A stretch of 64,000 nucleotides of DNA, from positions 36,982,783 through 37,046,782 of the forward strand of contig OX359250.1 in NCBI GenBank assembly GCA_947179485.1, written 5' to 3'. Below the pieces are notes generated by a model. That model did not search any database. It worked only from the letters and a program-made list of their open reading frames with translations, and was not told the origin of the DNA. Shown here one piece after another: positions 43,468 to 56,104 of the stretch; positions within the stretch are counted from its first letter, which is position 1; the number at the start of each line of letters is the position of its first letter. A program made the translations under genes and the position numbers. The DNA is from Allacma fusca. Its lineage: Eukaryota > Arthropoda > Collembola > Symphypleona > Sminthuridae.

Positions 43468-44129
43468 TTAACCTAATATATCCATTTGAAGAGGGTCTAA
43501 ACCATCATCCTCATCAGCAACAAATGGAACTTGCCGTAAAGTCTTGTCAAGAATTAACAGAACGATATCTGCTAATCCACTAAGCACTACGAACACTAAA
43601 CTAGTTCTACTTGAGAGAAACTGGTAGAAAGAACGCTTCAGAGGTGGTAGTAATGTCGGTATGGAATTATCTCCATTATTTGAATTCCGATTAGAAGTTG
43701 AACGTAAATATTCTTCAAAATCACTTGTATCTACGCATGCATCCCGCGTTCTGATCTCCACTATTTCTGAACCTTGTCTTTCTGCAATCTGCTGATGACC
43801 GCGTCGTTCCGCTTCAGGTAACATATTGTTTCTCTGGTCGTTACCACTTCGAAATTCCGCCGGTTCGATGGACAAAATCGGTGTTTTGATTCTAAAACGG
43901 AACACTCCCAGAAATACAAACACAAACATAAAAACTAGGACGAACGGTTGCAACCACCATGGAAATACGCTGGAAGCATTCCTAAAAAATTCGCCGAGCT
44001 TCCCTCCAATATAACCAGCAGGGGAAAACACGAGAGTAGCGAAGGTCTGAGAAACAGCCTCTGCTGGTGATACACTCCAGAAAGGATCAACCATAACCTC
44101 TCGGTGGTATGATACACAACGGTCTTCGA
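43468..44129 (-). CDS. CLCC1: CLCC1 exon 3 (conserved core and C-terminus)
   Basis: The acceptor reads AATTTCAG and the phase matches exon 2. It encodes DRCVSYHREVMVDPFWSVSP, aligning with the conserved C.KYYE..LVNP.W.VPP region of CLCC1. A membrane segment follows at FVLVFMFVFVFLGVF, then a polar region with EAERRGHQQ. It ends in MDILG and TAA at 43470-43468. Confidence 0.92.
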
Positions 44130-45447
44130 CTGAAATTATTGAAAAAAGATCGTTAACAGTTGATTTTTTTACTATACATACATTGTAAATAAGAACAATC
44201 GCTCCAAACGTTACTATTTAAGAAGAATTTACTTACACGACAAAATATGAACTCTGAAGAAATAACTAGCTTTGTCCCAGAATCCCAATCTTTCGAATTC
44301 GCAATCAGATGGTACATCTCGAGTTTGTAAAACCCTGGCATAATTTTCCGCCTTTGCTACTTCATACAACGAAACAAAGGACCATACACAACTAATAAGG
44401 ATCATCGCCAAAAAACCGTACATCATAACATGGTAAACTGTCGGGGAAGTTCGTGTTCGCCACAAAACTATGAACAGAAGCAGCAAAAACACTAACAAAA
44501 TTGCAGCTAGCAACAAATTTTTAGGTGTCAAGAACATCCCGAAAACATGCAACATCCCTTCCTTGATGGTTTCAAGAAATTCGGGGGTAGCAGGCGCAGA
44601 AACCACATGGAGCATGTTACTGATTATGGAATCCACTTGGACTAAATACTTGTCAGCATCACTCAATTCCTCTTCCACAAATTTGTTTAGCATCATAAAA
44701 TCAGAATGAGAAATTTCTGCCTGCAGATCAATAGTTATTGCTTCTCCTGGACCAAAAGTATGGCTCTGGAAAGGGAGAAAACATGATTACTAAAGCAAAT
44801 CAAAAACACCTACATATCTCACATCCTCAAATAAATTTGCATCAAAGGTACTTGCGGATTCATACTAGTACTTAGAACATTCCAATAACTTACCCCGACG
44901 TTCATTTGGCGTAACAGTGAAGCAACAACTCTTTTTAAAAATTTCATTGATGATACTCCTCCAGTTGCCAAATCCTCTTCAGGTTTGTACTTTCTAAATG
45001 TCTCCACCACTTCTATACTTTTCAACAAGTCCGGATCAATCCGCCCTGGATGATGCCTCAGCTCACTAGAAATGCTTCCCTCCTGATAAACCCCATCCAC
45101 TGGATCCGACAAGTCTCCACGGTATTCATAATTGTATCTAGTAACTTTGACTTCTTCTGTATCCAAAGAATTCAAATCAATACAATTAATTCCAATAACA
45201 CTCTCTTTTTATGCACGACATAATCCAAAGAAACCTTCAAATTCCGCCTCCTACCTTCAACCACTCCTGGTGGCTTCAGTCCATTTCTCCCTAAATTAAG
45301 ATTCTTCTGAAATCCATGGTTGTACGAGCCCATGTCAGTGAAGTCCACAAAACCCTCATCGTATTCTCCGACATAGTCTAGTCTTGATGAGGTCGTCGAG
45401 GAAATAAGTGCCACGAGTACTGACAACGCCCTCACTTTCATCGTCAA
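43468..45447 (-). CDS. CLCC1: CLCC1-like ER chloride channel (chloride channel CLIC-like 1), 3 exons, one apparent frameshift
   Basis: CLCC1 proteins are multi-pass membrane proteins of the ER and outer nuclear membrane described as anion channels. CDS exons on the - strand are 45447-44894, 44765-44237 and 44129-43468. The product is about 581 residues if the frameshift in exon 1 is set aside. Visible features are an N-terminal signal sequence (MTMKVRALSVLVALIS), a VDFTDMGSYNH motif like the conserved DPTDMLNYD of CLCC1, and hydrophobic segments near residues 269-287, 298-318 and 423-439. The family core lies around VDPFWSVSPAEAVSQTFATL and GGKLGEFFRNA, and a fourth hydrophobic stretch near 538-556 precedes an acidic tail. 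Exon 1 changes frame at a T5 run (45206-45210). Splice phases are otherwise consistent. Confidence 0.88.
44237..44765 (-). CDS. CLCC1: CLCC1 exon 2 (first two membrane segments)
   Basis: The acceptor reads CCTTTCCAG and the donor GTAAGT. It encodes SHTFGPGEAITIDLQ, an amphipathic region, then membrane segments around LLLAAILLVFLLLLFIVLW and YGFLAMILISCVWSFVSLY. It ends in phase 1 after HILS. Confidence 0.9.
44894..45447 (-). CDS. CLCC1: CLCC1 exon 1 (signal peptide, DPTDM-like motif, frameshifted)
   Basis: The ATG at 45447-45445 begins a signal-like hydrophobic stretch. The exon ends at NVG before GTAAGT. The frame open from the ATG runs into a stop at about 45172. The rest of the exon is open in another frame starting near 45209. 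One extra base in the T5 run at 45206-45210 would join both parts. Confidence 0.8.
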
Positions 45448-46514
45448 TACAGACTACTGTTTTGAGTTCCAACTTGAGAATTTCCAGTCCCTATGTGATC
45501 TACTCAATATTACAAAATTATTATCAATCATACATATTCACCTACATGCATTATATAACTGTCAACAAAATTTAATCTGACAATTCCTCGTCAATTTTTG
45601 ACACCATAATTTTCATTGCAATTATTTATTGTCACATTTTTGTATACAATAATAATTATTGTAATAGCGGAAATTAATTACCTCCAAAAGACATCCAAAA
45701 AAGAAAGATACAGGTCACTTCAAAATGTAGCCATTTCATAACGCATTCGAAATAATTTTAAATCCACACAAAACTTGACTTTTCCCATGTTTACGTACAT
45801 AAAGAATTACGAGACTAAATCAAATGTTTTTAGTTATCCAGTTGTTACCATTTACTGACACCTGAACATCTAATCGATTGATTAAAAATTATTCACCTGT
45901 TCGATATACTTTAACAGGTTTAAAAGTCTCACAGAATTAATAAAGTAAGTAATAATGATCACTGGCCTAAAATGTCAATAACAGTTGAATTGCTGGAATA
46001 GCTGGAACGTATATGAAGATATGTATTCACTTGAGTTCTTGCCATCAACGATTTACGTTTGGAGATCGTGTTCAAAGCAGCCCACACCTTTCTGGAGGCA
46101 TAGGGAAAAAGTATAACTCTGATGACGGTGTAAAAGTGTCCCGAACGGCAATAAATGGTACATACAGCTATGCCTTGATGAGTTACATTCAGGCACAAGC
46201 CTCGCACATGCATGTACTTCCTCAACGCACGATGAAGTACGTCACAGCATAACTTTCTGAGGCACACCGACGCATATGTCTGAAAATTATATTGAAATGG
46301 TTTCTTACACGTGGCATACAGTAATATACTCCCTTGTGTCACACCGAAGTATATTTCTGAAAATTATACTGAAATGGTTCTTTACTAGTGGTATATAGTA
46401 TTATACTCCGTACTACCCAACCTTATCGCAATCTTATAATATATTTGTGATGCATTCATACTAACGTTAGCTGTTAAATTATAATTGCGAAGATAGTAAA
46501 AATCATCATAGAAT
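45448..46514. other. CLCC1 upstream region, AT-rich, no gene seen
   Basis: This holds the CLCC1 promoter side and, at its right, the 3' flank of the BEN gene. A 77-bp tandem duplication lies at 46263-46409. No long reading frame has recognisable content. The left end of the putative CACTA-like transposon should lie here if that element is intact. Confidence 0.5.
46263..46409. repeat. diverged 77-bp tandem duplication
   Basis: Copy 1 is 46263-46331 and copy 2 is 46340-46409. Both read CACACCGA, then TCTGAAAATTAT, GAAATGGTT and TATACTCC, with scattered substitutions. Confidence 0.85.
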
Positions 46515-46520
46515 TTTATT
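46515..46520 (-). terminator. polyadenylation signal of BEN-domain gene
   Basis: AATAAA on the - strand about 65 bases past the stop codon at 46583. Confidence 0.6.
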
Positions 46521-46582
46521 CAAGCCAAAGAAGTTAACAATGTAATGATAAATAAGTATTAGTTTGCACGCCAGGTAGCAGA

Positions 46583-46821
46583 TTAATCCGAGGATACGTT
46601 GTTGAGTAAAGGTTGCAAAGAGGTGTCTTTACGCTTTTTGATTGTTCTTATACCTTCGTGGTCATAGTCACTCCTATATGCTTGCAGAATATTCCGGATG
46701 TCTTTACGAGTATTCTTTTTAAGTTCGTTAAGTTGGGCAAGATAAGGATTGTACCCATTCTTATTGGTCTTGTTCTCGTATTGGCTAAGGATACTTTTGT
46801 CCATGGCTTTAGCAACGACCG
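46583..46821 (-). CDS. BEN gene exon 6 (basic C-terminus)
   Basis: The acceptor reads TTCTCCTAG. It encodes AVVAKAMDKSILSQYENKTN, a Lys-rich helical segment and RTIKKRKD, ending NNVSSD and a stop. Confidence 0.8.
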
Positions 46822-47945
46822 CTAGGAGAAATAATTTGAAGATTGATAATGTCTTTTCTCATTTTTATTTAAAAAAAACTACAAATAACTTATGTAAAAA
46901 AAGGTGTTTACCAAGTGCGATTTCAACTGATTCCAGTGGAATTGCTTTTCTTGGATTGAGCTCAATCTGAATCTCGGAATCCGGGGTTTCGTTTTCTTTG
47001 CATCTACGTGTACGAAAAACATGAGTATGCCTGATTTAAAGGTTAGAAGATTTAGGTTAAGTTTTACATTTAAGCTGACCTTTTAATTAATCCTTTTCCA
47101 CTTAAGGTGAACTCTTGCATTTCTTTCACGGTGTGCAAGCTCTCCAACACCACTCTAGCAATTGTCCGTGGAATGCTAGAGCCAGCAATTTGACGCCATA
47201 CACCAGTGGTCAGGAAATAAGGAAGCTCCGTCTCCCCAATAGTGACGGTTACGTATGGCTATAAAAGTAACAGCATTATTATTTTTGTACTCCAAATAGC
47301 GATCATATTTCAGCTACCTAGCATACTAGATAGATGTGTGGAATTAAAATAGACAAAAGTTGTGTATCTACTTATACCTCACGAGATTGGTAAGAAACAG
47401 GTGTGAGACAATTTGATGAGACTAGAGATGCATTTTCCGTTGGTAATTGTTTTTGCCGAACCACATCTAAAACACTTTCCACATTGGTGTGAAGGGGCTG
47501 CATTGATGCCTTTAATTCAAGAATTGCATCTTTGAATGTTCCACCTTCAGGGGTAGCGTTAGACTCAATCACCTTTCTCAGAGAATTTACCTCTGAAACG
47601 CATAAAAAAGTACAGAGTTACAGGTTTATTAAGTTATTAAAAACCTGGCTTATAAGTAGTATTTTTAGAATTCATTAAAACATTCCATACCACTAGTGAG
47701 CTCCTCGACTCTGTAAACAAGTGAATTAATAACCGGGACCAAACAATTATTAAGCTGAAATAAAATAAAGCAAAGCAAAGCGAATAATTAAAAACTAATA
47801 TTAAAACGCGTATAATAATGTATTTAAAAAATTAAACCTTTTCAACTAGAATTTTCTCCAATTCGTCTGCTTGAAAAACTGGGCCGATATAGTTAGGCTT
47901 TCCAGTTTCATCTGTAAATTCGAAAACCTGCGACTTTGTTGCCAT
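46583..47945 (-). CDS. BEN-domain protein, probable accessory protein of a CACTA-like transposon, 6 exons
   Basis: The CDS on the - strand is 47945-47838, 47754-47691, 47592-47378, 47258-47080, 47030-46912 and 46821-46583. It totals 924 nt and 307 residues. All introns are GT-AG and the phases agree. Residues about 38-110 look coiled-coil (VYRVEELTSEVNSLRKVIE). Residues about 132-230 fit a BEN domain: VTIGE..LPYFLTTGVWRQI, then PRTIARVVLESLHTVKEM, FTLSGKG and a closing LNPRK.IPLESVEIAL. BEN domains bind DNA or chromatin proteins. The C-terminus is basic (RTIKKRKD). It is divergent from the transposase gene 409 bp away, so a role in binding the element's DNA is plausible, but that is inference. 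The BEN call is by pattern and is moderately sure. Confidence 0.8.
46912..47030 (-). CDS. BEN gene exon 5 (end of BEN domain)
   Basis: The acceptor reads AAATCAG and the donor GTAAAC. It encodes HTHVFRTRRCKENE, then IELNPRKAIPLESVEIAL, matching the LDP.KL.AI closing helix of BEN domains. Confidence 0.82.
47080..47258 (-). CDS. BEN gene exon 4 (core of BEN domain)
   Basis: The acceptor reads TTTTATAG and the donor GTCAGC. It encodes VTIGETELPYFLTTGVWRQI and IPRTIARVVLESLHTVKEM. The order of G-V-W, R..AR.L and the ..EM..FTLSGKG segment fits BEN. Confidence 0.85.
47378..47592 (-). CDS. BEN gene exon 3 (coiled-coil linker)
   Basis: The acceptor reads CGTTTCAG and the donor GTATAA. It encodes VNSLRKVIE and a polar linker ending SYQSREV. 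It is open in one frame only and in phase with its neighbours. Confidence 0.8.
47691..47754 (-). CDS. BEN gene exon 2
   Basis: The acceptor reads TATTTCAG and the donor GTATGG. It encodes LNNCLVPVINSLVYRVEELT, a probable coiled-coil start. It enters in phase 0 and leaves in phase 1. Confidence 0.72.
47838..47945 (-). CDS. BEN gene exon 1
   Basis: The ATG at 47945-47943 starts MATKSQVFEFTDETGKPNYI. The exon ends LEKILVEK before GTTTAA, exactly 36 codons. Confidence 0.78.
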
Positions 47946-48354
47946 GACGGAAAATTAAGTTTTTAAAAACAATTAATACACTTCCCATGACCTTAAGCAG
48001 CAGCCATTTTAGCACGACCACGCCATGCCCTTGTATTGAGATGGTCCGTTAAAAATGTTCTATGCAGAGCTTATTGGCATTCTATGTTTTATGTGTTAAA
48101 ACGTTCGTACGTATAAATAAAGGGCAGTTCATATTTGCTCTCTTCAAGCGTGCTTGGAGGAATTTTTGGCTGTCTCTTGTATCGTTTATCTCTACGTGTG
48201 TAGGTATTTAACTTTATTATAATACATATGTGATATTTATGCACACACTTACAGAAACTGATATACAGTTTTGAAAGCTTGTAAAAATGTTTAATTGTAT
48301 CTAACTTTATAAAAAATTACAGAATCGCATTAACGTCTGATTATTATCCAGAAG
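47946..48354. promoter_or_regulatory. divergent intergenic region shared by BEN gene and transposase
   Basis: 409 bp separate the two start codons, so both 5' UTRs and any promoters lie here. I see no clear TATA box. The middle contains GCAGCCATTTTAGC, whose complement resembles a YY1-type AAAATGGC word. This is suggestive only. Confidence 0.5.
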
Positions 48355-48427
48355 ATGAGCAAAGAAATTTCATCACGAACAGTAAGATACAGAAGGAGGA
48401 AACAAATCTTAATTGAACGGAAAGCGG
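48355..48427 (+). CDS. transposase exon 1
   Basis: The ATG at 48355 is followed by 24 codons, Arg/Lys rich, then one base and the donor GTTAGT. It joins in phase 1 to the next exon to give Asp. This start was chosen because it adds an in-frame ATG and a basic N-terminus. Confidence 0.72.
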
Positions 48428-50969
48428 GTTAGTTAATCTTTTGATTTAATGTTGTGAAGATCATAGCTCAATAATTATTGTATTTAATATTTTTATATAA
48501 TAATATTATTATTGTGAGATTATTATTAGAATAAGAATACTATAATTATAATCATATTTTAAATACAACCAGATTTGCCATCGTCAATGTTAGCTGAAGA
48601 TGGTCATCATCTAATCATACGAACCTGTGAAAATTTTCCTGATGAAAGATATTTTGAGCGCGTTCCAAGTACTTCGTCAACGAATACATTAAGCTCACTC
48701 CAGTTACAGGAAATTGAAACTGTGTACCAATCTCAAGTGGATCATGATAATGTTAATGTACAGCTTCAAATGGAGGAAGTAGAAGTCTCACATGCTGAGC
48801 ACTCACATTGTTCTAACGTTGATATTCAAATCCAAAATCCTCCATTCGCAACTGGAGGAGACAACACTTCATGTACAATCAATCCAGTGAGTATAAAAAT
48901 AGCAGCACTGGCGAGTAAACATGGCCTGTCAAATTCAGCCGTCAATGATATACTTGGATTTACAACTGAAGTTGCCTTTTTGTACAGGGATCAAATTCCA
49001 CAATGTATTGCCACCGTCGAAGCAGATTTATTTCAGAATAAGCTACAAGCTTTGTTTCTTTGGAAATGCCCTTTGTGCGAAAGTGTAAAAACTCACAGTT
49101 TATATGACAATCCGTTTTCTAAAAAATGCTGCGGAAATCAAATAGATCATAATGAGGATCATTACATTATATTTGATTCGGGAAATGTTCTACAAGCAAT
49201 GTTACCCATAGTTTACTCTCATATTAACCTTGAGAGGTATTTGCATCTTCGACCGAGACTATTCCAGCAACGCGAAAGCCTGAATTTTGGCATAGATGAT
49301 ATATCAGTAACAATTAATCTAGATGGGGTGTCCTTAACCAGTGGATCCAAGTGCGTCATTCACCCAATACTAGGATTTATAGACGGAACTAGTTCCCGCT
49401 GTGCTGACCAAAATATCCTGCTATTTGGATTCTGGCTGGGGAGGAAAGGTGGCAAGCCAGATTTTAATATCCTACTCAATCCTTTGGTCGAGTCTTTTCT
49501 TCAATTCGAAAATTCAGGGATTTTATGGACTAAACCAGATGGCTCTTCATGTATATCTCGTGCCATTATTTCCTGTTGTTTGTGCGATAGCGTTGAACGC
49601 CCCCTGGTTCAAGGAATGATGCAATGGAACAGTGAATTCGGCTGTTCCTATTGCCTGCATCAGGAAAAAGGGCATTACTTCACCCCGGAAGGCACATGCT
49701 CAGGTCTTCGATCTGGTCAGCAATACCGAGCAATTATTGAGCAAATAAACCGCAACAATGTTATTCAGAACTACGGAGTCCGGAAGCCCACCCCGTTTCT
49801 GCAACTGCAATATTTTGACCCAATAATTGGTACATTAATTATAATTTAGCCTGATAACATGACTGCGAGATTTTCATTTGGATATAAATATTTACTAACT
49901 TCTCTGAAAATATTTTTCAGATTTTCCTCCTTGCATCATGCATGCCGGTTACCTCGGAGTCTGTCGTACATTGATAGAAGCATGGATGCAGAGTAGACAG
50001 TGTGATCAATACTACGTTTCTTCTAATCAGATTAAGCTCATTGACAAGTACCTGGAATCAATCAAACCACCCTACAGGGTCTCAAGAAAACCCAGACCAC
50101 TCAAGTTCCTTGCCTGGTACAAAGCTCATGAGCTATGTATGTGGTTGTTGTACTATTCTCCGCCCATTTTACATCATATATTACCGCAGGACTATTTTTG
50201 CCACTGGTTGTTATTATTAAGAGGTCTAAGTGAGGTTTTACGAACAGAAACGCAAGAAGCAAATCTGCAAGCAGCTGCAAATAATCTAAGCAAATTTTGG
50301 ACGGACACGTACAATCTGTATGGGAAAAAAACCTCTCATTTCAATTTTCATTTGCTAACGCACCTCCCGTCTTTAACACAGCAGCTTGGTCCTATGTACA
50401 TGTTCTCTATGGCCCCATTTGAAACATATAATATGAGAATCAAATCGTTTATTTCGTCTTCTCAACATGTTGCAGAGCAAATTACTAAACGGTATATTAG
50501 GGATCTGCACGTTAAATGTCACGACAGTAACAGTCCCATAAGTCAAAACCGAGATCGTTACTCCTGTCATGTCAGAAAAAACTGGATGCCCGGATGGTAC
50601 AACTGTCCTACGGATTCTTGTGCCGTTGAATATTACGGACGAATAGTTAGAAACACTGGTATCAAGTTTTATTCACTGTGCAATACGAAATGCAAAGTTA
50701 GAAATTCTTGCTGTTTTACTTTAATTAATGGGAAAATAATTGAAGTAGATTATTTTGTTCGAGTTCCGTGCAGTGGAAATATTTATGCTGTGGGAAGTAC
50801 TTTTGATGTTGATATTGCGTTTGAGTTGTGGTACTACTTCCTAGCACAGTCAAAAGAACAATTAGTGTGTAACATTGAGGAGCTGGACAGTATAGTGTTG
50901 AAAATAATTTACAAGGGGAATACATATTTTTCAAAATTTATCAATGATGTTGAATGTTATAGCGAATAA
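48355..50969 (+). CDS. tnp2 / CACTA (EnSpm)-like transposase, 3 exons, intact
   Basis: The CDS is 48355-48427, 48573-49829 and 49921-50969. It totals 2379 nt and 792 residues with no internal stop. Features are a basic N-terminus (TVRYRRRKQILIERK), a CPLC zinc-ligand pair near residue 190, and ISVTINLDGVSLTSGSKC with Asp near 275 as candidate catalytic acid. These are followed by KPDFNILLNPLVE, CLCDSVERPLVQGMMQWN and GCSYCLH. Exon 3 gives HFNFHLLTHL near 583-592 and LGPMYMFSMAPFETYN near 599-614. The order (D.G..L..S, a P-L-V block, CD...R..VQGM..., GC..C, N.H...H, FE..N) is that of the transposase_21/tnp2 family of CACTA elements. All splice phases match. It is divergent from a BEN-domain gene. 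It could be an active transposon gene or a domesticated one. Confidence 0.86.
48573..49829 (+). CDS. transposase exon 2 (catalytic core)
   Basis: The acceptor reads ACAACCAG and the donor GTACAT. It is 418 codons of uninterrupted frame with the zinc-ligand pairs and the first catalytic Asp candidate. Confidence 0.9.
49921..50969 (+). CDS. transposase exon 3 (C-terminal half)
   Basis: The acceptor reads TATTTTTCAG. It is 348 codons to the stop, including HFNFHLLTHL, FETYNMRIK and a C-terminal domain with GIKFYSLCN, as seen in tnp2 proteins. Confidence 0.9.
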
Positions 50970-51082
50970 CAGTGTCGTATTTAATCAGGTCATGACTGGA
51001 GTAATTGCTTAAAAAATGAATCTCTGTAAGTATTAGATTCATATACATATATCTCACAATGCGATAGTCTTTGGTTCTGAGC

Positions 51083-52229
51083 TCGTCTTCTCTTACTTTG
51101 TGCATTACAGGTTGTAGATACAAAGCTCGGCGAGGTAAGTCTTTAAATTACTTTATAATTCCATGATTTAATTCAGTTAAATTATTAATAAAATAAAATA
51201 ATAAGTTTTCTTAGAGCGAGGTCACAGCTTGCTAAGGATTTCCAGTTTGACCAATAAATTAATTGAATGTTTAAAAATTAATAAACATTGAATCAATATC
51301 TTCCAACAGACTCGTGGTCCTAAGAAACATTTGAAGCGCTTGAATGCGCCGAAAGCATGGATGTTGGAAAGTTTGGGTTGTATGCACCACGACCCAGCAC
51401 CGGTCCGCACAAGCTCGGGGAATCCCTTTCATTGGTTATTTTCCTCCGGATCCGTTTGAAGTATGCCTTGACCCGGTCTGAGGTGACAAAGATTGTCATG
51501 CAGCGTCTCATCAAGGTCGATGGAAAGGTACGAATGATCCGACTGGATTTATAGATTGGTAGCTGGCAGTCATTATTGAGTGCACGGGTGGATTATCCAG
51601 TGTTTGAAGATTCAAAATCGATTGATAGGAATTGCTGTAATGATTCGAAATTAAATATACTCCTAGATGTGGTTCGAGTTGAGAAGACAGGAGAAGACTT
51701 CAGATTAATCTATGATGTCAGGACAAATTTAGTATTCACAGAATTACCCAAGAGGAAGTCAAATTAAAAACATTTGTAGCTTTTCCTGTTGTTGTGTAAG
51801 TACAAACTTTGCAAGGTTAAGTCCGTAAGTGTATCTCCTAAGAGACTCGCATTCTTGACGACCAGTGATGGCAAACCCATCCGTTACCCCAATCCATTGG
51901 TGAAGATTAACGATACTGTGCACGTAGAAATCGCCACTGCTAAAATCATGGGATCCATCAAAGACACCGGTAAGTTCTGGGGTGTCCGTATTCGTAGGGA
52001 ATTCGAAATTATCTTTAAATTATGGTGACAACTTTTTATCATAATCTGATGATCGTTAAAGATATCAATTTATTTCTGAATTGTGTCAGGGAAGCATAGC
52101 ACTGGAACGATTGGACTAAACTGAGTGATAAATAATTTTTTCATAGGCAACTTAAGATGATTACTGGAACTGTTAAATTGGGTCAAGTGGGAACCGTGGT
52201 GAGCCAAGAACGTCATCCTGGATAATCTG
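51083..52229 (+). pseudogene. RpS4: ribosomal protein S4 pseudogene, unprocessed and decayed
   Basis: Fragments of RpS4 follow in the right order but in shifting frames. They are [18 protein letters not shown] at about 51313-51366, [12 protein letters not shown] and [20 protein letters not shown] to about 51533, VRVEKTGEDFRLIYDV at about 51672-51720, and YKLCKV with IRYPNPLVKINDTV and ATAKIMGSIKDTG at about 51798-51969. The last is TGTVKLGQVGT with QERHPG at 52160-52229. Frameshifts and stops separate them, and the last quarter of the protein is gone. Splice remnants survive: exon 1 ends at 51134 before GTAAGT, exon 2 starts at 51310 after CCAACAG, and there is an intron from 51970 (GTAAGT) to 52146 (TTCATAG). 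It is therefore a DNA-level duplicate and not a retrocopy. The pyrimidine tract near 51083-51096 resembles a ribosomal-protein transcription start. Confidence 0.9.
51187..51192 (+). terminator. candidate polyadenylation signal of the transposase
   Basis: AATAAA about 218 bases past the transposase stop. It lies inside the first intron of the RpS4 pseudogene. Its use is uncertain. Confidence 0.35.
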
Positions 52230-53872
52230 ATACTTACACAGATTCATTTTTTAAGCCATTCCTCCAGTCATGACGATTCCTCCAGTTCATATATATGTAT
52301 GGGAAAATAGTAGCTCACGGTTAAAATTGTGTCTTATTGTTAGCAACAGAGTTTACAGATTTTGTTTATTCCGCTACTAGGTAAAAATAGACACTATTAA
52401 AAAATTTGTTAATTTTTTGTTAATATTTGCATGTTCCTATCCAACGTAATGTTAATTTTTATACAAATTCCTATATCTAACGTAATGTTAAATTTTGGTG
52501 GAATCCATATTCAATCTCATTTTTTATTTTTATTAGTGTACTTTTATTTTTTATTGTGATTGTATTTGACAAACTTTCTTCACCCTTGAATAAATAGATT
52601 TTGTACTCATAAGGGATGAAAAAAATATGGATAATAAAATAATATTCCGTTAATACTTCCGGCAAGAGGACAGGGGAAATAGTATTGAGTGACCCTGAAT
52701 TGTGTTTACAATTTTATGGATAGCTGGGGAAGATTCTTGGCATTGATTCTCTCCTTATAGGGAACTTTTGAAAGAATCTACGTATGAACATATGTACATA
52801 TATGCTAGTGTCCTTGTACCTACTGATATGCAGAGGTACAAATATTGTATGAATGAAAATTTATTTAGTCGCAACGGAATTCCACCATTACTTAATATTA
52901 CAAGGGTTCCATCCTATTTCCCTGTTTGTAGCGTAGTAAATTATAATATTAGTAATCGGAATTTGTTTTCTCTAACCACTGAATAATAACAATTGTATTG
53001 ACGCCGTGGAAAATCACTTACTTTATACTAGCCACTCTAGATCTCATGTACTGAATATATTAAATCATTGCAAGTTTCTCCAAAGTGTGTAGTCACTGTA
53101 GTAATTCATCTAAATCTATTATCAAAAATTTTGGCTATCGGTTATCCGATTGCCATTTTAGAATTTTTAATGTAAAATTTAAAGCATATGCTCCACGGTG
53201 TCTTTCAAAGTACTGCTGCACAGAGGTACATTCAAGCATGTTTAAGCATAACTGTGTGTCCCTGAACAAACGTACATTTGTCACGAAACATTGTCATATA
53301 CTTGGAAGCGTAGCGCGTCGAGATATCCGGTCGATAGAGTGACATTGCCGACTACCAAGATCTACTGGAAATTCAGCTATGCTTGCCAGGGGTATCATTC
53401 AGTATACCACAATGTCTCTCCATTAACGTGTGGGAGTTCGAACGTAAAGACTATCGAATTTGATTACCCCGCGCAAGATCAAGTATAAATACACGTAATG
53501 CTTGCCATTGCTTACTGTAGCTTCTTTCGACTGGACATCACAGTGGACATCCTTATATTCTTACGTAACCATAGGTCAAAACAAGCACTATAAAGCAGCA
53601 ATAATTTATTGATAATGCAAGTTAAGGGATGTTTAATCCAGAACCATGGGTATGTATATATGTATAATGCGTAGAAAGATGCAAGAACTAATAGAAATAA
53701 GTCCAGCTTTTTGTTAAATTCCAACGTTTACGTGCAAAATATAGCCCAATGTAAAACCCATTACGTGTGTATACAAGTGAGTTTATTCACCATGCCAAAA
53801 AATCATAAGGTATATGGAAGGACACCAAAAATAGCTTTTCACGGGCGAGGAATTGATTCCATTTTCTAGGTG
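52230..53872. other. intergenic, AT-rich, no gene seen
   Basis: The RpS4 similarity stops at HPG and nothing recognisable follows. Open frames here are short and lack any family signature. Confidence 0.55.

Positions 53873-53975: not shown

Positions 53976-56104
<2,129 letters not shown>

Follow-up and report, generated by a model that had tools for sequence, protein, structure and literature searches.

A putative CACTA-related DNA transposon of the collembolan Allacma fusca with a divergent partner gene that likely encodes a BEN-like protein

Introduction

Do two neighbouring genes that diverge from each other in the genome of the collembolan Allacma fusca belong to a mobile element and, if so, what might the protein encoded next to the transposase contribute to it? 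Both genes lie in a window of 64,000 nucleotides (assembly GCA_947179485.1, contig OX359250.1, positions 36,982,783 to 37,046,782 of the forward strand), which is the whole stretch of DNA analysed here and to which all coordinates refer. An initial annotation, made from the letters of the window alone, had described a CACTA-like unit consisting of a tnp2-type transposase and a divergent partner with a coiled coil and a BEN-like domain, either recently active or domesticated. In the cited sections of PMC1636069, animal CACTA-related elements are described mainly by their transposase. Based on comparison with relatives in the same genome, we consider the unit, with a probability of about 0.8, to be an animal CACTA-related DNA transposon (TRC/EnSpm, CMC superfamily) of the cut-and-paste type, which encodes a transposase and a second, element-borne factor.

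Results

Two complete, divergent genes recur together in the genome

The transposase gene (48355..50969, + strand) consists of three exons (48355-48427, 48573-49829, and 49921-50969) coding for 792 amino acyl residues plus a stop, and the partner gene (46583..47945, - strand) of six exons (47945-47838, 47754-47691, 47592-47378, 47258-47080, 47030-46912, and 46821-46583) coding for 307 residues plus a stop. Every intron in both genes is of the GT-AG type, there are no internal stops, and a spliced aligner guided by the two window proteins returned identical exons for both genes, in agreement with the complete proteins of the initial annotation. The two start codons are separated by 409 bp (47946..48354), as had been noted, and this region presumably serves as a divergent promoter. 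In the partner protein, a coiled-coil stretch is followed by a conserved BEN-like region of about 105 residues (approximately residues 130-235, limits set by eye).

Three more families in the genome carry both genes, whose products are 41-65% identical to those of the window, and the partner gene has six exons in each of these families as well; in view of this recurrence, the pairing in the window is more than chance. The genome searched comprises 392.7 Mb. A DNA search for the transposase, combined with a protein search for the partner, found at least 13 loci where the transposase matches substantially, and the partner is present at all 13, on the opposite strand and in divergent arrangement. 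Besides the window, families A, B, and C account for six, four, and two of these loci, respectively. That the divergent two-gene unit proposed from the window is recurrent in this genome is therefore strongly supported by sequence comparison. At C5 (L011), a fourteenth locus, the transposase is reduced to about 100 bp and the partner is decayed and partly duplicated. Some weight on the other side comes from 21 further loci with partner-like matches alone, mostly short and to the C-terminal part, three of which (L023-L025) show no transposase match within 5.5 kb. Relatives of the pair were not found in viral contigs, nor were relatives of the transposase in prokaryote contigs.

The three loci L023-L025 are short, resemble the partner over its C-terminal part only, and have a flanking repeat in common; perhaps they are non-autonomous derivatives.

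The element has CCC tips and a 2-bp target site duplication

Where does the unit begin and end? The initial annotation had covered 46515..51192 and reported no convincing terminal inverted repeats (TIRs), but TIRs exist outside that interval. The alignment of genomic copies that it had suggested places the tips at 46081 and 53434, so that the whole element (46081..53434) comprises 7354 bp, with the left end supported by the start of homology and the right end by anchored alignment. The left TIR CCCACACC (46081..46088, + strand) and the right TIR CGTGTGGG (53427..53434, - strand), which is the sole exact copy in the window, differ at one of eight bases, and the element is flanked by a 2-bp target site duplication (TSD), AG, at 46079..46080 and 53435..53436. 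With a query extended 1 kb beyond the end, the match to L011 (78%) and to L009 (68%) begins precisely at 46081, with the outer flanks unmatched (665 and 860 of 1000 shuffles, respectively, align as well). At the right end, an anchored alignment with L009 at its transposase-side end, excluding the first eight bases, was equalled by none of 1000 shuffles, compared with 59/1000 for the flank outside; BLAST at E<=0.01 did not detect this right-end similarity to L009. As the match of L011 to the window ends about 115 bp short of the right end of the window element, L011 has probably undergone a truncation or rearrangement there. For the same reason, and because the ends themselves do not align, TCCACACG, which was considered as the other end of L011, is doubtful.

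The tips of families A, B, and E were placed where copies cease matching, those of the window, L009, and L011 by motif. Family A (L013-L018) has the tips CCCACACG...CGTGTGGG, family B (L012, L020, L021, and L022) the tips CCCGCACG...CGTGCGGG, and family E, consisting of L027 and L031, has CCCGCA tips and 2-bp duplications in both copies. CCC occurs at both ends in 14 of the 15 elements with assigned ends. Identical 2-bp flanks are present in 10 of the 15, including the window (chance 1 in 16 each, P ~2e-9), and are absent from L013, L015, L012, L021, and L011; the proportion becomes 10/14 if the doubtful end of L011 is dropped. Across elements the tips read CCCACAC or CCCGCA with a 2-bp duplication, which is the combination of animal TRC elements, with CCC tips and 2-bp target duplications, and not that of plant En/Spm, with CACTA tips and a 3-bp TSD. 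In the cited sections on animal TRC elements, which have CCC tips, 2-bp duplications were found in 7/14 copies of SmTRC1 (PMC1636069).

A 51-nt inverted repeat inside the element was also considered as its TIR and rejected, as it has three matches in the genome, two of them inside the window element.

The + strand gene resembles CMC transposases

In the window transposase, D275, D363, C382xxC385, H587xxxH591, and E611 are invariant across the four families in the genome, so that the protein shows a DDE triad with the C(2)C, H(3-4)H signature. According to the cited part of PMC12730594, C(2)C and H(3-4)H between the second D and the E are common to EnSpm, Mirage, Chapaev, and Transib (for the CMC catalytic pattern, the cited part of PMC4592977 was used as well); since Transib has the signature too, the signature alone is not diagnostic of CACTA. 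The four-family profile recognises the transposase open reading frame (ORF) of family E at E 3e-62, and this ORF scores against Transposase_21 at E 8.8e-6 (25.5 bits, under the curated cut-off of 28.6) and against DUF1258 at E 2e-6, below the curated cut-off. The sister transposases reach E 0.037 and 0.065 for Transposase_21 in a Pfam search, and DUF4218 matches the window transposase at E 0.0032 over the whole protein and at E 0.00061 for its C-terminal piece alone, both below cut-off. Two results speak against the assignment: the window protein does not match Transposase_21 (PF02992) at E<=10 in two Pfam searches or at E<=0.1 in another, and neither window protein has a Pfam match above cut-off. 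Taken together, the motifs and the sister family that scores for Transposase_21, albeit below the curated cut-off, support the assignment of the + strand gene as a CMC (CACTA-type) transposase. The tnp2 pattern named initially holds for the catalytic motifs, whereas direct profile support from the window protein alone is weak or absent.

The motif of animal TRC transposases, [LVI]-D-x-[LM]-H-x3-L-G (given in the cited sections of PMC1636069), reads P-C-I-M-H-A-G-Y-L-G at the corresponding position of the window protein and, with C allowed for D, was found in 7/10000 shuffles. Family E has D at this position. As all four families, that of the window and the three closest to it, have C there, the C is read as a lineage trait and not as a sign of death. 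A loss of catalysis deduced from the CIMH sequence (in place of DxMH) was rejected on the same grounds, the CMC triad lying elsewhere. Among solved structures, the transposase profile found two weak, unrelated matches, which were set aside.

Beside the family E element at L031, a second, broken transposase relative adjoins from outside (best piece E 1.9e-14).

Recent movement in a sister family and the question of domestication

The six family A copies share 5,435-5,438 bp with 98.9-99.9% identity to L013, both genes are open to the stop in all of them, and the stop position of the partner is identical. Because of this near-identity and the open frames, it is supported that elements of this kind moved recently, as judged from family A. 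Families B and C include copies with apparent lesions. A near-identical sister of the window copy was not found in the genome DNA search. As it combines the lack of such a sister and one TIR mismatch with an intact TSD and two open frames, the window copy is most simply read as the sole survivor of an older family.

One might expect the same picture, however, if the pair in the window were an ex-element kept by the host, with its proteins now in a chromatin or regulatory role. Both frames are intact although no near-identical sister was found, hardly anything is left of the transposase in L011, the nearest relative, whose partner is decayed, and one of the eight TIR bases is mismatched. On the other hand, the TSD and the two ends can still be recognised, a broken RpS4 fragment is carried along, and the two-gene sister families are multicopy and recent, so that transposition explains the constraint. 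The ratio of nonsynonymous to synonymous substitutions (dN/dS) between copies, a comparison already recommended in the initial annotation, is 0.06 for the transposase (with dS saturated) and 0.19 for the partner between the window and family C, and 0.46 and 0.56, respectively, between L013 and L017 of family A, where changes are few. Such constraint is no argument for domestication because it is expected of elements that keep moving. Domestication of the window pair thus seems very improbable, and of the two states originally offered, recent activity is supported for the sister family A rather than for the window copy, domestication being left without positive support.

Does the partner carry a BEN domain?

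A genome-wide search with Pfam BEN (PF10523) gave 30 matches, 14 of them over cut-off, and five of these 14 loci were examined (L026, L027, L028, L029, and L031). At L026, L027, and L031, a BEN exon above cut-off diverges from a relative of the window transposase, which at L026 is seen as its N-terminal part only (E 1e-4). At L028 and L029, whose BEN exons are also over cut-off, no transposase match was found within 6 kb by tblastn or profile. A profile of the partners of the four families aligns to the BEN exons of L026 and L027 (hhalign E 0.002, with none of 200 shuffles as good), and this alignment covers the BEN core in register. As sister BEN exons sit in the same divergent place, and as the partner profile matches them better than 200/200 shuffles, it is likely, although not proven, that the partner carries a BEN domain.

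The direct scores point the other way. Pfam BEN matches neither the window partner nor the partners of the three sister families, and none of the 13 paired loci is among the 30 genome-wide matches. Against the two sister BEN exons the hhalign probability is 13.9%. With a home-made hidden Markov model (HMM) of three solved BENs, 858/2000 shuffles score as high as the partner, and 156/2000 do so when a further, provisional probe is added. In profile-profile comparison, the three solved BENs give a probability of 0.7% (score 14.8, within the range of shuffles run against the four-sequence set), the same three with the added probe 10.5% (score 22.7, above 100/100 shuffles, with the caution that this probe is provisional), seven BENs without the probe 2.6% (1/150 shuffles as good), and longer pieces of the seven pooled 5.2% (2/200 shuffles as good), and true BENs left out singly reach 70-99%. 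A structure model of the partner, made from a single sequence, was useless (mean pLDDT 38).

A PDB profile search with the partner has a designed coiled coil as its top match (E 0.00042), in line with the coiled coil annotated initially, and no BEN among the 11 matches listed. These coiled-coil matches, as well as matches to dynactin (E 0.02), were taken as indicating a coiled coil only. One may therefore ask whether the partner is an unrelated coiled-coil factor lacking a BEN domain, which came to occupy the same place by chance. The missing Pfam matches in all four families and at the paired loci and the outcome of the PDB search would suit such a factor, but the divergent position shared with the true BEN exons of L026, L027, and L031 and the in-register alignment of the BEN core would not, and we regard it as unlikely. 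The positional argument for BEN is, in our view of these comparisons, stronger than the direct profile scores. Hence the BEN-like domain of the initial annotation is backed by position and by weak profile similarity to sister BEN exons, and lacks direct Pfam support from the window protein. Profile searches did not assign the - strand protein to any other family, and some BEN exons do lie beside a transposase, so that neither of the two findings which had been named as fatal to the proposal occurred.

The BEN exon of L029 adjoins a long ORF which by eye resembles a reverse transcriptase.

A captured RpS4 fragment and the neighbourhood of the element

Between the transposase and the right end, the element contains a fragment of an RpS4 gene (51054..52223, + strand) with intron sequence kept and frames broken, which is bounded by two 51-nt arms (50989..51039, + strand, and 52224..52274, - strand) that are inverted copies of each other and 92% complementary. 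Compared with the open RpS4 exons at C10 (L019), it consists of pieces of 81-90% identity. In L011, a 32-bp RpS4 remnant, 90.6% identical to L019, occupies the same internal place, and the surroundings of the second arm (52192-52282) are found beside it in element order. Because of this shared internal place, the capture of RpS4 probably preceded the split of the window copy and L011. In the cited part of a survey of 100 animal genomes, 370 captured gene fragments are reported, none of them in its insects (PMC8277862).

The likely parent RpS4 gene at C10 (L019:3590-7784) occurs twice, in opposite orientations and with identical exon content, and some of the sequence between the copies reads N. 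In the partner-side end region of the window element, a stretch of about 70 nt is tandemly duplicated (46263..46409, + strand, 84% identical). The left neighbour of the element (43468-45453) comprises - strand open frames, one with a match to MCLC (Mid-1-related chloride channel), and the right neighbour (54537-55448) is a - strand gene of the zinc-binding alcohol dehydrogenase type.

Discussion

How might such a transposon work? In the model that we favour, the 792-residue DDE transposase, whose motifs and whose target ends are seen in the sequence, would cut and join at the CCC tips, leaving the 2-bp duplication. The 307-residue partner would most likely oligomerise through its coiled coil and may bind the end regions and the central promoter via the likely BEN-like fold. 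It could thereby help to pair the ends or tune the transcription of both genes, much as TNPA does in maize En/Spm. This role is proposed by analogy with TNPA and with the second gene of Sly1-1.

Alternatively, the partner might not assist transposition but repress its own element, as a means of copy-number control or silencing. The divergent promoter arrangement would suit a repressor, and for one BEN protein of Drosophila sequence-specific DNA binding and transcriptional repression are on record (cited in PMC4574769, in the part consulted). Nevertheless, both roles fit the results equally, and the conservation of the partner at the 13 paired loci suits one as well as the other; we hold the repressor to be a possible but somewhat unlikely account, and prefer a co-factor of transposition.

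In the open-access literature, no title or abstract on a BEN protein paired with a CACTA-, EnSpm-, or Transposase_21-type transposase was found, Repbase being outside the scope of that search. A more speculative and rather doubtful generalisation would be that a broad animal CACTA-like branch regularly encodes, divergently from the transposase, a DNA-binding BEN protein as its counterpart of TNPA, and that some host or bracovirus BENs could descend from transposons. With its BEN-like region, the conserved second protein is a candidate for end recognition or self-regulation that can be put to the test, as well as a possible source of BEN genes, and the near-identical copies with open frames make the question directly testable.

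Plant En/Spm encodes two proteins, TNPA and TNPD, one of them catalytic and the other binding the ends; it has CACTA tips and a 3-bp duplication, and its proteins arise from one transcription unit by alternative splicing. The window element resembles En/Spm in the two-protein scheme and differs from it in the tips, in the length of the TSD, and in the lack of a single transcription unit. With the animal TRC elements of the SmTRC1, Tribolium, and Aedes type (PMC1636069) it has in common the CACTA-type transposase, the CCC tips, the 2-bp TSD, a size within their 4.5-9.2 kb, and a motif resembling D-x-[LM]-H-x3-L-G. In contrast, the cited sections on TRC describe alternatively spliced and tandem ORFs and mention no divergent partner gene, and the window family, like the three sisters closest to it, has C in place of the D of the motif, which is present in family E. 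Sly1-1 of Neurospora is similar in arrangement, being a CMC element with an adjacent, divergent second gene of unknown function, an arrangement reported from Chaetomium too (PMC4592977, part cited); Sly1-1 is, however, fungal and 11.5 kb long, and the likeness is one of arrangement. BEN DNA-binding proteins, such as insv, BANP, BEND6, and the bracovirus BEN genes (PMC4574769, part cited), are represented in this genome by the exons of L026 and L027, which exceed the Pfam BEN cut-off, whereas the window partner does not and is element-encoded. Finally, animal Pack-TIRs, in the cited part of PMC8277862, similarly hold a host gene fragment within a TIR element, but they are mostly hAT and TcMariner (323/370), whereas the RpS4 fragment of Allacma fusca resides in a CACTA-like element which has kept its own genes.

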